A DNA stretch of 64,000 nucleotides from Streptomyces sp. DG1A-41 (GTDB taxonomy: Bacteria > Actinomycetota > Actinomycetes > Streptomycetales > Streptomycetaceae), in NCBI RefSeq assembly GCF_037055355.1, contig NZ_CP146350.1:6409001-6473000 (forward strand), read 5' to 3'. How positions within the stretch are numbered: the stretch's first letter is position 1; every line of letters starts with the position of its first letter. Made by a program: the position numbers and the translations under genes. Below the pieces are notes generated by a model. That model saw nothing but the letters and a program-made list of their open reading frames with translations. It had not been told where the DNA came from and made no database searches. Below, in pieces: positions 51,740 through 58,330 of this stretch.

Positions 51740-51995
51740 CGGTTGAAGGCCACCCGATCGGCGCATACCAGATGCATACGGGTGGCCGGGGCGCATTCGG
51801 GCAACCGTCGGCGACCGCTGCCCGTGGAAGCCTTCTGCGGCCTACTGTTGAGATGTGCGCCTGCCGTGCCCAGCTGCGGTCGGGGCATCTTCGTGCTCGT
51901 GGAGCACGGGGAAGGGTTTTCCAACGCGGGCCGCCCAAGGTTGTCGGGCACCGGGCCGCGGGGCGTGGGCACCGCCGGCTGTGAGAGGGACGGGA

Positions 51996-54290
51996 ATGGA
52001 ACCGACCGAGAGCGCCGTGCCGGGCTCACGGCTGCGCCTGCGCCGCATGGCGGTCGTATGGCGTGCAGTCCGTGGGACGGGCCTGGCGGGGCGTCCGGGC
52101 GCGGAAGGGCGCGCCGCCGGACAGTACACAGCGGACGGGCGTACCTCCGGGGGGCGCGCCGCGGCGGACGGCCGCGGCGCCGCGCAGCCGGTCACCGAGC
52201 ACCCGTCCGGCCTGACCGGCACGGACGCGGACCCGGAACGGCACCTGTCCTGGCCCGCGCTGCCCGCGGCGGTCGTCGCGGCGGCCGGGTTCGTCCTGGG
52301 CGCCGGCTTCTACCGCGCCTTCACCGGCGACCACGCGCTCTTCCCGTCCGGCACGGCCGGCTGGGCGCTGGCCGTGCTGACCGGCATCATCGTGGGCCAC
52401 CTCGTCATGCTCGGCCGCTCCCGCTGGTGGGGCGGCACCGGCTCGGGCGCCGCCCTCACGCTCGCCGTGCTGCTGCTGTACGGCTGGGTACCGGCCGGCA
52501 TGGTCAGCCTCACGGTCGTCGTGCTGGTCGGCATAGCCCGCCGCAACCGCTGGCGCCAGGGCGTCCTGCACGGGGCGGTCGACCTCCTCGGCATCGGCGC
52601 CGGCGCCCTGGTACTGGGCGTCTTCGGGTCCGTACCGTCCGTCGAGTCCCCCTCGGATCCGGACAGCTGGACGCTCTACACCGCGCCCGAGGTCGTCATG
52701 GTCGCCGTCGCCTACCTGGCGGTCACCCGCGTCCTGCTCTGGTACCTGCACGCCCCGCGCCCCGGTCTGCCCACCGTCGCCCGCACCGCCCTGGTCAGAC
52801 AGGGCCTGGTCGCGGTCGCGCTGCTGGGGATCGCGCCGCTGGTCTGCGTGGTGGCCGTGGCCCAGCCGATCCTGCTGCCTCTGTTCTCCATCCCGCTCAT
52901 CGCCCTGGACTCCACGCTCTGGATAGCCCGGGCCCGGGCCGAGGAACAGCTGCGCGACCCGCTGACCGGGCTGCCCAACCGCCAGTGGCTCCAGGAGCGC
53001 ATCTGGACCGCGCTGGACGACGCCGAGCGGATCGACGCGCGCGCCGCCCTGATGCTGATCGACCTCGACCGTTTCCGGTCGGTCAACGACACGCTCGGTC
53101 ATCTGGCCGGTGACCGGCTGCTCCTCCAGATCGCCGACCGGCTGCGGGTGGCGCTGCCGCGGGGCGCGGAGGCCGCGCGGCTCGGCGGGGACGAGTTCGC
53201 CGTCTTACTGCCAGTTGCCGACTCCACGACGTCCGCGACCCGGGTCGCCCGCAACCTGGTCTCCGCGCTCAGCTCCCCGCTCGACCTCGACGGCCTCACC
53301 CTCGTCCTGGAGGCCAGCGCCGGGGTCGCCGTCTTCCCCGACCACGCGCTGGACGCCGAGGGGCTGCTGCGGCGGGCGGACGTGGCGATGTACCAGGCGA
53401 AGCGGGACCGTACGGGTGTGGAGGTCTACGAGTCCAAGCGCGACTCGAACACCCCGGACCGGCTCGGTCTGCTGGGAGACCTCCGCAGGGCGCTGGACGC
53501 CCACGAGGTCGAACTCCACTACCAGCCCAAGGTCCGCTTCGACGGACAGGTCGCGGGTCTGGAGGCCCTGGTCCGCTGGGTGCACCCCGAGCGGGGCAAG
53601 GTGCCGCCGGACGAGTTCATAGCGATCGCCGAGTCCTCGGGCCTGATGCCCCATCTCACCGAGTACGTCCTGGAGACCGCGCTCGCCCAGGTCGCGCGGT
53701 GGCGGGCCCAGGGACTGTTCGTCCCGGTCGCGGTCAACGTCTCCCCGCGTGACGTCCACACCCCCGGCTTCGCGGGCTCGGTCGCCGCGCGGCTGGCCCG
53801 GCACGGCGTCCCGGCCGGAGCACTCCAACTGGAGATAACGGAACACGTCCTCCTGGAGGACCCGCAGCGCGCCGCCGACACCCTCAACGCACTGACCGGG
53901 CACGGCGTGAAGATGTCCCTGGACGACTTCGGCACGGGCTACTCGTCGCTGGTGCACCTGCGCAAGCTCCCGGTCAGCGAACTGAAGATCGACCGCTCGT
54001 TCGTCGCCCGGCTCGCCATCGACACCGAGGACGCGGAGATCGTGCGCTGCACGGTCGACCTCGCGCACTCCCTCGGCCTGCTCGTCGTCGCCGAGGGCGT
54101 CGAGGACGACGAGACCTGGGAGCGCCTGCGCGACCTCGGCTGCGACGCCGTCCAGGGCTGGCTGGTCGCCGCCGCGATGCCCCCCGACGAGACCACGGCC
54201 TGGCTCCGCGCCCGGGGCTCCTGCGGCTGGCAACGCCCCCGGGCCGCCCTCCCGGCGGCGACGGCGGACGACTCGGGCCGCATCGTCTAG
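51996..54290 (+). CDS. rmdB: GGDEF-EAL cyclic-di-GMP protein (RmdB homologue)
   Basis: A 764-residue membrane protein. After a cytosolic N-terminus of ~90 residues, six to eight hydrophobic segments (residues ~90-310) form a membrane sensor. A GGDEF domain follows (LGGDEFAV, near 397-401), with no RxxD inhibitory site before it. An EAL domain (E523-A-L, NVSPRDVH, LEITEHVL, LDDFGTGYSSL, LKIDRSF, AEGVED) has every catalytic residue, so phosphodiesterase activity is expected. From memory, S. coelicolor RmdB (SCO5495), next to ligA, degrades c-di-GMP and affects development. ATG at 51996 behind GAGAGGGACGGGA. The region 54291-54543 is non-coding. Confidence 0.93.
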   Translation: MEPTESAVPGSRLRLRRMAVVWRAVRGTGLAGRPGAEGRAAGQYTADGRTSGGRAAADGRGAAQPVTEHPSGLTGTDADPERHLSWPALPAAVVAAAGFVLGAGFYRAFTGDHALFPSGTAGWALAVLTGIIVGHLVMLGRSRWWGGTGSGAALTLAVLLLYGWVPAGMVSLTVVVLVGIARRNRWRQGVLHGAVDLLGIGAGALVLGVFGSVPSVESPSDPDSWTLYTAPEVVMVAVAYLAVTRVLLWYLHAPRPGLPTVARTALVRQGLVAVALLGIAPLVCVVAVAQPILLPLFSIPLIALDSTLWIARARAEEQLRDPLTGLPNRQWLQERIWTALDDAERIDARAALMLIDLDRFRSVNDTLGHLAGDRLLLQIADRLRVALPRGAEAARLGGDEFAVLLPVADSTTSATRVARNLVSALSSPLDLDGLTLVLEASAGVAVFPDHALDAEGLLRRADVAMYQAKRDRTGVEVYESKRDSNTPDRLGLLGDLRRALDAHEVELHYQPKVRFDGQVAGLEALVRWVHPERGKVPPDEFIAIAESSGLMPHLTEYVLETALAQVARWRAQGLFVPVAVNVSPRDVHTPGFAGSVAARLARHGVPAGALQLEITEHVLLEDPQRAADTLNALTGHGVKMSLDDFGTGYSSLVHLRKLPVSELKIDRSFVARLAIDTEDAEIVRCTVDLAHSLGLLVVAEGVEDDETWERLRDLGCDAVQGWLVAAAMPPDETTAWLRARGSCGWQRPRAALPAATADDSGRIV

Positions 54291-54474
54291 GTCCCGGACC
54301 GGACCGTTCCTGACCCCGGTGCCTTCCAGTCGGCGCCGTCGGCCGGACCCGTGGCGCCGGCTGGACGGAACCCCTCGCCCCGGCACCGCCGGCCTGTCCG
54401 CCTGCGCGCTGGTCGGCCGCGAGCGGCACACGGTCACCTGCCTCCGCAGGGTTGCGGTCTCCGTTCCTGAAGCA

Positions 54475-54499
54475 CTCCGGCGGGGCCGGGCCGCCGGAG
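54475..54499 (+). terminator. Hairpin after rmdB
   Basis: CTCCGGCGG (54475-54483), 7-nt loop, CCGCCGGAG (54491-54499): perfect 9-bp stem, 185 nt after the rmdB stop and 40 nt before the gat promoter-like -10. No U-run. Confidence 0.5.
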
Positions 54500-54537
54500 C
54501 CGGCGAAACCGTTTCACGGTCACGCCTGCCCGCCCCA

Positions 54538-54543
54538 TAGGAT
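54538..54543 (+). promoter_or_regulatory. Probable -10 element of the gat operon
   Basis: TAGGAT matches the Streptomyces housekeeping -10 pattern. The best -35 is weak (TTCACG, 54513-54518, 19-nt spacer). Transcription would start near 54550, at the beginning of the structured leader. Confidence 0.45.
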
Positions 54544-54723
54544 TAGGACCTGGCGCCCCACGTTCCCGCCTGCCGTGCGACGCCTGGCACGCACGCTCGC
54601 CGCGTTGCCGAATCGCCCACGTGGTCCCGCCACGAGGACGCTCCGGCCCCTTGCGATCGCTCGCGCCGGACGCCGCACGGCCCGCCCTCCGGGCGGACGA
54701 CGGGAATGTGACGCCAGGTCCTA
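54544..54723 (+). ncRNA. Structured RNA leader upstream of gatC (multibranched)
   Basis: Closing helix TAGGACCTGGCG (54544-54555) with CGCCAGGTCCTA (54712-54723), 12 perfect pairs; after a small internal loop it continues with ten more pairs (54559-54568 with 54701-54710, one G-U). Inside are a helix GCCGTGC/GCACGGC (54572-54578 with 54675-54681), a hairpin CCGCCC-TCC-GGGCGG (54682-54696), CGTGG-TCCCG-CCACG (54620-54634) and TCCGGC/GCCGGA (54642-54647 with 54665-54670) enclosing GCGA-TCGC-TCGC. No credible protein is encoded. It is either a regulatory leader of gatCAB or an independent small RNA. I know of no named RNA family of this shape at this site. Confidence 0.65.
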
Positions 54724-54761
54724 GGCCCAAACCACACACACTCACCCCAGAGGATCGCTGC

Positions 54762-55058
54762 ATGCCTGGCATCACGCGCGAGGAGGTCGCCCACCTCGCC
54801 CGGCTGGCGCGTCTGGAGCTGAAGCCCGAAGAGCTCGACCACTTCGCGGGACAGCTGGACGACATCATCGGCGCGGTGGCCCGCGTCAGCGAGGTCGCCG
54901 ACCAAGACGTACCGCCGACCTCGCACCCGCTCCCGCTGACGAACGTCATGCGCCCGGACGAGGTCCGTCCCTCGCTCACCCCCGAGCAGGCGCTCTCCGG
55001 AGCCCCGGCCCAGGAGCAGCAGCGTTTCAAGGTGCCGCAGATCCTGGGGGAGGAGTAA
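54762..55058 (+). CDS. gatC: Asp/Glu-tRNA amidotransferase subunit C
   Basis: A 98-residue subunit that belts GatA and GatB together: [40 protein letters not shown] and [20 protein letters not shown] are typical. ATG at 54762 behind AGAGGAT, 38 nt after the structured RNA. It is the first gene of gatC-gatA-small ORF-gatB; the order C-A-B is conserved in actinobacteria. GatCAB amidates Glu-tRNA(Gln) and/or Asp-tRNA(Asn). Confidence 0.97.
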
Positions 55059-55064
55059 CCCGCC

Positions 55065-56560
<1,496 letters not shown>

Positions 56561-56564
<4 letters not shown>

Positions 56565-56800
56565 GTGCACTGACCAAGGCCAAGGGCTTCAAGAAGTCCA
56601 GGTCCGGTACGTATCTGTCCATGGCCGGGACCGCGTTCGGCGCGATCGGCGTCGCCAAGCGGCTGAAGAAGGCCCGCGCCGAGAAGGACACCCTGGTCCT
56701 GATCGACGCCACCGTGTCCGCCGTCGCCATCGTCACCGGCCTCGCGATCCTGTACCGCGAGCTGAAGCGGCTGGGCGACGACGACGTCCTGCTGGGCTGA
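56561..56800 (+). CDS. Small conserved membrane protein nested between gatA and gatB
   Basis: A 79-residue protein starting [20 protein letters not shown]. It has two hydrophobic segments ([15 protein letters not shown] and [19 protein letters not shown]), a basic loop, and an acidic end ([10 protein letters not shown]). GTG overlaps the gatA stop, and gatB follows after 15 nt, so it is translated in the operon. I recall a gene of the same size at this place in S. coelicolor, which suggests selection. No GatCAB-like motif; function unknown. Confidence 0.75.
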
Positions 56801-56815
56801 GAGGGAAGTTACACC

Positions 56816-58330
56816 GTGACCACCACGACCGACCTGGTGTCGTACGAGGAAGCACTCGCGTCGTACGACCCCGTCATGGGCCTCGAGGTCCATGTCGAAC
56901 TCGGCACCAAGACCAAGATGTTCTGCGGCTGTTCGACCGCCCTCGGCCAGGGCGCCAACACGCAGACCTGCCCCGTCTGCCTCGGCCTGCCCGGCGCGCT
57001 CCCGGTCGTCAACGCGACCGGCGTCGAGTCCGCGATCAAGATCGGCCTCGCGCTGAACTGCGAGATCGCCGAGTGGTGCCGCTTCGCCCGGAAGAACTAC
57101 TTCTATCCGGACATGCCGAAGAACTTCCAGACCTCCCAGTACGACGAGCCGATCGCCTTCAACGGCTACCTCGACGTGCAGCTGGAGGACGGCGAGACCT
57201 TCCGCGTGGAGATCGAGCGCGCCCACATGGAGGAGGACACCGGCAAGTCCACGCACGTGGGCGGTGCGACGGGCCGTATCCACGGCGCCTCGCACTCGCT
57301 CCTGGACTACAACCGCGCCGGCATCCCGCTGATCGAGATCGTCACCAAGCCGATCGTCGGCGCGGGCGAGCGTGCCCCCGAGGTGGCGAAGGCGTACGTC
57401 CGTGAGCTGCGCGAGGTCATCAGGGCGCTCGGCGTCTCCGAAGCCCGTATGGAGATGGGCCAGATGCGCTGCGACGTGAACCTGTCGCTGCGCCCGAACG
57501 GCACCGAGAAGTTCGGCACGCGTTCCGAGACGAAGAACGTCAACTCGCTGCGGTCCGTGGAGCGCGCGGCCCGCTTCGAGATCCAGCGGCACGCGGCCGT
57601 GCTGAGCAGCGGCGGGACGATCGTCCAGGAGACCCGGCACTTCCACGAGGACACGGGGTCGACGACCTCGGGCCGGGTGAAGGAGGAGGCCGAGGACTAC
57701 CGGTACTTCCCGGAGCCCGACCTCGTCCCGGTGGCCCCGTCCCGCGAGTGGGTCGAGGAGCTGCGGGCCGCGCTGCCCGAGCTGCCGCTGGTCCGCCGCA
57801 ACCGGCTCCGCGAGGAGTGGGGCGTCTCGGCCACCGACATGCAGGCCATCCTCAACGCCGGTGCGCTGGAGCCCATCGTCGCCACCATCGAGGCCGGGGC
57901 CGACGCCGCCTCCGCCCGGAAGTGGTGGATGGGCGAGCTGGCCCGCAGCGCCAACGAGTCGGGCAGGGCGCTCGACGAGCTGGCGATCACGCCGCAGCAG
58001 GTCGCCCGGGTCACCGAGTTGGTCGCGAAGGGTGATCTCAACGACAAGCTGGCCCGTCAGGTCATCGAAGGCGTCCTCGCGGGCGAAGGCACCCCGGACG
58101 AGGTCGTCGACAAGCGCGGGCTGAAGGTCGTCTCCGACGAGGGCGCGCTCACCGCCGCCGTCGACGAGGCCATCGCCGGCAACCCGGCCGTCGCGGACAA
58201 GATCCGCGGCGGCAAGGTGGCCGCGGCCGGCGCGCTGGTCGGCGCGGTCATGAAGGCGACCCGGGGGCAGGCCGACGCGGCCCGCGTGAAGGAGCTGATC
58301 CTTCAGAAGCTGGGCGTCAGCGAGGGCTGA
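56816..58330 (+). CDS. gatB: Asp/Glu-tRNA amidotransferase subunit B
   Basis: A 504-residue subunit that activates Asp/Glu-tRNA with ATP and transfers ammonia. Zinc-binding Cys ([19 protein letters not shown]), the kinase-like core ([15 protein letters not shown]), [16 protein letters not shown] and [19 protein letters not shown] are all conserved. The C-terminal YqeY-like tail ([20 protein letters not shown]) binds tRNA. GTG behind GAGGGAAG. Terminator downstream; convergent with a methyltransferase gene. Confidence 0.97.

Follow-up and report, generated by a model that had tools for sequence, protein, structure and literature searches.

A predicted fold in front of gatCAB in Streptomyces sp. 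DG1A-41 is very probably a copy of a miniature transposon family with a strand-asymmetric core

Upstream of gatC, Streptomyces sp. DG1A-41 carries about 180 nt with a strong predicted fold, which had been proposed to act either as a regulatory leader of gatCAB or as a stand-alone small RNA. Is this fold a gatCAB switch, or something else that happens to lie there? We analysed the window (the whole stretch of 64,000 nucleotides, positions 6,409,001 to 6,473,000 of contig NZ_CP146350.1) together with related loci. The fold is probably not a gatCAB switch. Judging from sequence comparisons, it is very probably a copy of a non-autonomous miniature transposon (MITE) family that is scattered through Streptomyces genomes.

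The fold, its borders and its empty counterparts

The structural part of the original prediction holds. The 12-bp perfect closing helix (54544-54555 with 54712-54723), the 10-bp extension (54559-54568 with 54701-54710) and several inner stems all appear in the minimum free energy prediction, and the fold does lie between TAGGAT, a likely -10 box, and the gatC ribosome site (GAGGAT, 54750-54755, with the start ATG at 54762). On the plus strand, 54544-54723 has a predicted minimum free energy of -108.4 kcal/mol; 200 dinucleotide shuffles average -79.73 (sd 4.21), and none of them matched the native value (z -6.81). Two properties had been overlooked: the reverse strand of the same interval folds even better (-133.5), and the sequence is a dispersed repeat (features in Table 1). 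At 180 bp the element is below the 600-bp bound for MITEs and carries no transposase gene, and the open reading frames that cross it in the ORF list are mechanical. No Rfam match at E <= 10 was found within 52000-57000, which bears out the earlier exclusion of T-box, 6S and glycine-type RNAs; five other loci gave 8 Rfam matches, all far under the gathering score and mostly to miRNA hairpin models. The gene upstream (51855-54290) presumably encodes a GGDEF/EAL cyclic-di-GMP protein, to judge from motifs in its translation.

Table 1. Features of the window copy and its surroundings (positions in the window)
Feature	Positions	Strand	Basis
Whole element (MITE copy), TA to TA	54544..54723	- (better-folding core strand)	fold, repeat copies, filled versus empty gatC sites
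Left TA, presumed target duplication	54544..54545		empty sites GGATTAGGCC in L029, L090, L091
Right TA, presumed target duplication	54722..54723		same empty sites (L029, L090, L091)
Left terminal inverted repeat, outer helix P1 (12 + 10 bp)	54544..54568	+	fold; other copies arranged alike
Right terminal inverted repeat, outer helix P1	54701..54723	+	fold; other copies arranged alike
Conserved core, about 132 nt	54569..54700	-	covariance model R1, 126.4 bits; genome 6463569-6463700, minus
Long arm P2 of core	54572..54681	-	fold, pair statistics, core alignment
Short hairpin P3 of core	54682..54696	-	fold, core alignment
TAGGAT, likely gatC -10 box, outside the element	54538..54543	+	promoter role inferred
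gatC, downstream host gene	54762..55058	+	ORF; 80 relatives carry gatC

The gatC region was compared in the best 80 of 462 confirmed loci, nearly all from organisms named Streptomyces. By BLAST (E <= 1e-3), the element is present at 7 of the 80 loci and absent from the other 73; one copy (L025) lacks its middle, and L094 is a deletion remnant consisting, by eye, of the outer arms alone. Most of the other loci are uninterrupted (...CCATAGGATTGGGCC(C)AAACC...), and some differ there by other short changes. Three of them (L029, L090, L091) read GGATTAGGCC, that is, the flanks of the window copy with a single TA; as the filled site has TA on both sides, insertion at a TA with duplication of the TA would account for both states.

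Dispersal, ends and candidate helper transposons

Elsewhere in the same single-contig genome of 8.99 Mb, the seven places that match best are 77-94% identical to parts of the window element. A search with R1 returned 16 matches at E <= 1; as three repeat a place already matched on its other strand, about 13 places are left, the weakest of which are doubtful. Each of 150 Streptomyces genomes yields at least one match at E <= 1, although many of these matches are weak; many long ones are found among the matches listed, several in some genomes. Across the order, 95 of 119 genomes, from 4 of the 5 genera, match R1 at E <= 0.001; Streptomyces contributes at least 90 of these, out of at most 108 genomes. 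The copy counts in this sample are lower bounds, since 28 candidates were scored per genome. The element also occurs on 25 plasmid records, all from Streptomyces. A phage origin was considered and dropped, the phage collection having given zero matches.

Several variant forms were seen. Genome G012 holds a divergent subfamily (L394-L413; 49 matches) in which the P2 motifs are kept and P3 is replaced, and G147 contains derivatives of 71-72 bp or slightly more (L223, L227, L226) that lack P2 and have perfect or near-perfect ends. In L047, L119 and L152 a small hairpin repeat of about 20-30 nt, of the CTCCCCC...GGGGG...CCCCCAG type, occupies the same spot in the P2 arm; L005 and L006 have a similar stretch on the other arm.

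The ends were processed in 124 loci, a set in which the window copy occurs twice and which includes some near-identical pairs. A long inverted repeat is present in most of them, in many cases with CTAG at its borders. The terminal repeats vary greatly from copy to copy (for example CTAGGCCCTGTCGTCAAATTCCCG, CTAGGGCGTGTTTTGAAAGT and AGAGCCTGTGAACAAACCCCCG), while the core stays similar. For the 108 copies with a usable palindrome, a crude boundary finder placed CTAG at both ends in 29, at one end in 25 and at neither in 54, and TA at both ends in 43 but not in the remaining 65.

Transposase genes of the PF13340 type, whose elements we take to be IS5-type, are present in all 10 genomes searched. 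At 3 of 30 PF13340 loci the gene lies in an element of about 0.9 kb whose ends are similar, though not identical, to those of the MITE (L271, 893 bp; L274, 906 bp; less perfectly L279, 942 bp). In G064 a MITE (323833-324010) even adjoins such an insertion sequence (324008-324904), with a CTAG common to both and with ends CTAGGGCCTGTCTTCAAAG and CTAGGGGGTGTCTTCAAATG. Thus the terminal inverted repeats, the TA or CTAG flanks of many copies, the dispersal, the uninterrupted sites of relatives and the similarly ended PF13340 elements together argue for a MITE. By comparison of ends, PF13340 transposases are the inferred movers in trans: the enzymes of the 0.9-kb elements would act on the MITE ends and insert at YTAR/CTAG sites, in many cases at a TAG stop codon, and the variety of ends might arise because different copies follow the ends of different insertion sequences.

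Insertion sequences of the PF13613 type were also considered as helpers, and their ends (AAGGGCTGTCCCG or AAAGGGTGTTGCA types) fit worse than the PF13340 ones. No helper was found for the window copy's own degenerate ends. Two loose end-pattern searches recovered nothing besides MITE copies or strays, and a search of G147 with the exact end pattern found 16 sites, all of them MITE copies or the 71-72-bp derivatives, with no helper element among them. On a Streptomyces cavourensis plasmid (L235), an IS630-type and an IS5-type element are stacked next to a copy; the IS5-type element and the copy have a TTAG/CTAG junction in common.

How does this family relate to known ones? The PF13340 elements share its terminal repeats and CTAG flanks at the 3 loci mentioned, but differ in length, in possessing a transposase gene and in that the genes listed lack a replication-linked orientation. 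REP sequences and REPINs are likewise dispersed hairpin repeats of extragenic DNA, but REPs are 20-40 bp long and linked to the RAYT tyrosine transposase, whereas the Streptomyces element measures about 180 bp and has terminal repeats flanked by TA or CTAG. The BOX elements of Streptococcus pneumoniae (mentioned in PMC10969869) are also dispersed, non-coding, folded and possibly active as RNA, but have another sequence and a modular build. MITEs with stable folds are already known: PMC10969869 presents QMITE2 of Coxiella, among prokaryotic MITEs, as short and gene-less, with terminal inverted repeats, a target duplication and a stable predicted fold. The Streptomyces element differs from these in that both it and its host are GC-rich, in joining a constant core to very different ends, and in that this core covaries, is strand-asymmetric and has an orientation linked to replication. 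It is the combination of such a core with variable ends and a replication-linked orientation in a MITE that we regard as new. The element had been singled out as structured and as a candidate for an undescribed one; it does covary, and no description of such a Streptomyces MITE was found in the open-licence PMC literature, which is weak evidence.

Strand-specific folding of the core and orientation to replication

The core strand, which in the window is the one opposite to gatC, folds better in all 61 copies, by 27.7 kcal/mol on average, and does so again in 61 of 61 when DNA energies are used. About 12 kcal/mol of the difference is due to composition; in 31 copies with 20 shuffles each, z was -13.1 on the core strand versus -9.5 on the other. 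Pairs were then counted on the core strand in an alignment of 58 copies (from the 124 loci, 91 had clean ends and 67 were below 93% identity, after which odd forms and three copies with inserts were dropped). In the 30 pairs of the inner P2 arm there are 1343 Watson-Crick, 347 G.T and 18 A.C cells, and the 10 basal P2 and P3 pairs have 520, 51 and 3, respectively. Parsimony on a FastTree tree gave 63 changes from one Watson-Crick pair to another, 45 to G.T and 13 to A.C, a significant asymmetry (p 3e-5); since the pairs were predicted on the core strand, the count is biased in favour of that strand, and the ratio is 38:13 without the seven mostly-wobble pairs. Two-sided changes occur at 19 of the 42 core pairs.

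The copies also tend to be aligned with replication. The core strand points towards oriC or the chromosome centre at all 11 places used in the host genome, out of 13 (12:1 if the two weakest, one each way, are added), and at all 10 among the matches listed for G202, out of 18. These two genomes (21:0), in which the pattern was noticed, are exploratory. In 22 other complete genomes with oriC located by dnaA, the ratio was 79:31 (p 5e-6), with the majority concordant in 20 genomes, discordant in one and tied in one; the matches came from 150 listed of 197, 40 of which, from G012, were set aside because dnaA lies far off centre there (21:19). G064 and G213 had already been inspected in part by eye when this test was made, and excluding G007 and G118, treated as rotated records with dnaA near the start, leaves 66:29. 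A further set of 25 genomes, 15 of them with matches, gave 40:20 (p 0.013) on the assumption of a central oriC, and 31:15 without the central fifth; 10 genomes were concordant, three discordant (G194, G227, G210) and two tied. The later sets pool to 119:51 (119 of 170), or 140:70 with G012, and all p values are optimistic in that shared old insertions were kept in the counts. In multi-contig genomes, inspected by eye and included in no set, 4 of 5 (G104), 3 of 4 (G141) and 1 of 5 (G066) copies point towards oriC. The PF13340 transposase genes are unbiased (10 of 19 and 9 of 18, from the 19 of 21 and 18 of 20 matches listed).

Transcription of the neighbours gives no such pattern. Among 60 copies, one inside a gene call, those between tandem genes were co-directional in 13 cases and opposite in 18 (home-made gene calls), while concordance with replication held across all gene arrangements (10:3, 15:3, 16:6 and 4:2). 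The bias thus tracks replication rather than transcription, and the orientation of neighbouring genes finds no support as its cause. We also looked for a stronger fold asymmetry in concordant than in discordant copies; there was no difference (p 0.90), and 20 G012 copies are as asymmetric as the rest.

The wobble pairs, the conserved mismatches and the replication-aligned orientation suggest that the core folds as single-stranded DNA. By fork geometry, the commoner orientation would make the better-folding strand the leading-strand template, so that one possible cause of the bias is the loss of copies that expose the fold on the lagging-strand template. Because orientation follows replication and not the neighbouring genes, we tentatively favour, with somewhat less than even confidence, a core fold that has a function or is tolerated while the DNA is single-stranded at replication forks. 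One might further speculate, with more doubt, that the family consists of a conserved single-strand-folding module joined to many IS5-type ends, whose spread or survival would be set by which fork strand exposes the fold, the core alternatively giving rise to an RNA from that strand.

The wobble evidence is just as compatible with an RNA made from this strand. It is conceivable, though rather doubtful, that transcription of the core from the strand opposite to gatC yields a structured RNA that acts in trans, perhaps by binding a protein or as a substrate of RNase III. The wobble pairs and two-sided changes on that strand, along with its strongly conserved core positions, are all in keeping with this, and RNA-seq of S. 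coelicolor is reported to have detected short transcripts over palindromes, many in 3' UTRs (PMC4681348). The same paper, however, takes most of these transcripts as decay intermediates, tandem neighbours show no preferred direction, and the orientation tracks replication. On balance, folding as single-stranded DNA at forks appears more likely than folding as RNA. A stand-alone RNA from this strand would in any case belong to the transposon family and not to gatCAB.

Could the covariation have arisen with no selection on the fold? Long inverted repeats undergo correction by template switching where they are imperfect, and the outer group (26 pairs, mainly P1) looks the part: it has 1390 Watson-Crick, 48 G.T and 16 A.C cells, but 27 of the 48 G.T stem from one inner pair, without which the P1 mispairs are nearly balanced (21 G.T, 15 A.C). 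An initial plus-strand analysis of 61 copies likewise gave 26 G.T and 36 A.C cells beside 2556 Watson-Crick ones. Specific core mismatches are nevertheless kept, among them a G.T pair found unchanged in all 58 copies, which indicates that the palindrome is not simply corrected to perfection. The mispairs are moreover strand-asymmetric, and the 45:13 parsimony ratio speaks against a single ancestral state followed by strand-balanced changes, so that palindrome correction seems an improbable source of the covariation.

We give about as little weight to the idea that transposition has spread a transcription terminator working both ways, or a stabiliser of 3' ends. By home-made gene calls, 75 of 118 gene ends that face a copy are 3' ends, and a hand count finds 20 of the 60 copies overlapping a neighbour's stop codon. 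But a CTAG target, met at TAG stop codons, makes such overlap expected and could by itself account for the 3' ends, and the gatC copy, lying in a 5' leader, would require read-through.

The preferred reading, a MITE core constrained as a folded single strand in copies that tend to align with replication, makes the family a testable case, with a bearing on the survival of hairpin-rich mobile DNA in Streptomyces chromosomes and on the question whether MITEs of bacteria hold functional nucleic-acid folds.

The gatC insertion

A gatCAB leader (a riboswitch, or a sensor of tRNA or glutamine), possibly a transposon copy taken into service, is very unlikely, even though the element lies between the -10 box and the ribosome site and its fold is kept in 16 gatC-site copies, in which 18 of the 65 pairs occur as two or more Watson-Crick types: the same element is found far from gatC, it is absent from most gat loci, which the original prediction had itself named as contrary evidence, and a selected leader should have more G.U than A.C on the mRNA strand, where the opposite holds (A.C 21, G.U 9). 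Part of this A.C excess is inherited from the MITE family; the count used a structure predicted without G.U, with L057 and L042 omitted as near-copies of L104 and L110 and L047 trimmed of its first bases. A tempting riboswitch candidate, probably a wrong one, is thereby removed, and covarying palindromic transposons can mislead scans for structured RNA in GC-rich bacteria.

At least 11 of 150 sampled genomes, that of DG1A-41 included, carry the element at gatC. The filled loci are scattered across a tree of 91 gatC-gatA sequences, and all insertions seen share one base position and one orientation. When 106 cores are placed in a tree, read without support values, the gatC copies fall in adjacent groups that form no single clade, and those of L104 and L057 are placed elsewhere. 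The likeliest history is one old insertion followed by many losses or by recombination, repeated insertion at gatC being a possible alternative; the gatC copy is old and probably immobile. Insertion right after the -10 box would lengthen the gatC leader and leave the promoter and ribosome site in place, and most simply it is tolerated, both the -10 box and the ribosome site being intact.

The TAGGAT itself is kept in the 80 gatC loci with small variations, as ATAGGAT or CTAGGAT (by eye). About 18 nt before it, the block AAACCGTTTCACGG (54506-54519) is, also by eye, kept in many of the 80 loci and is perhaps a -35 region or a regulator site. Five loci (L021, L022, L060, L070, L085) have a different extra stretch of about 60 nt after the -10 box, at the same gatC site (by eye).
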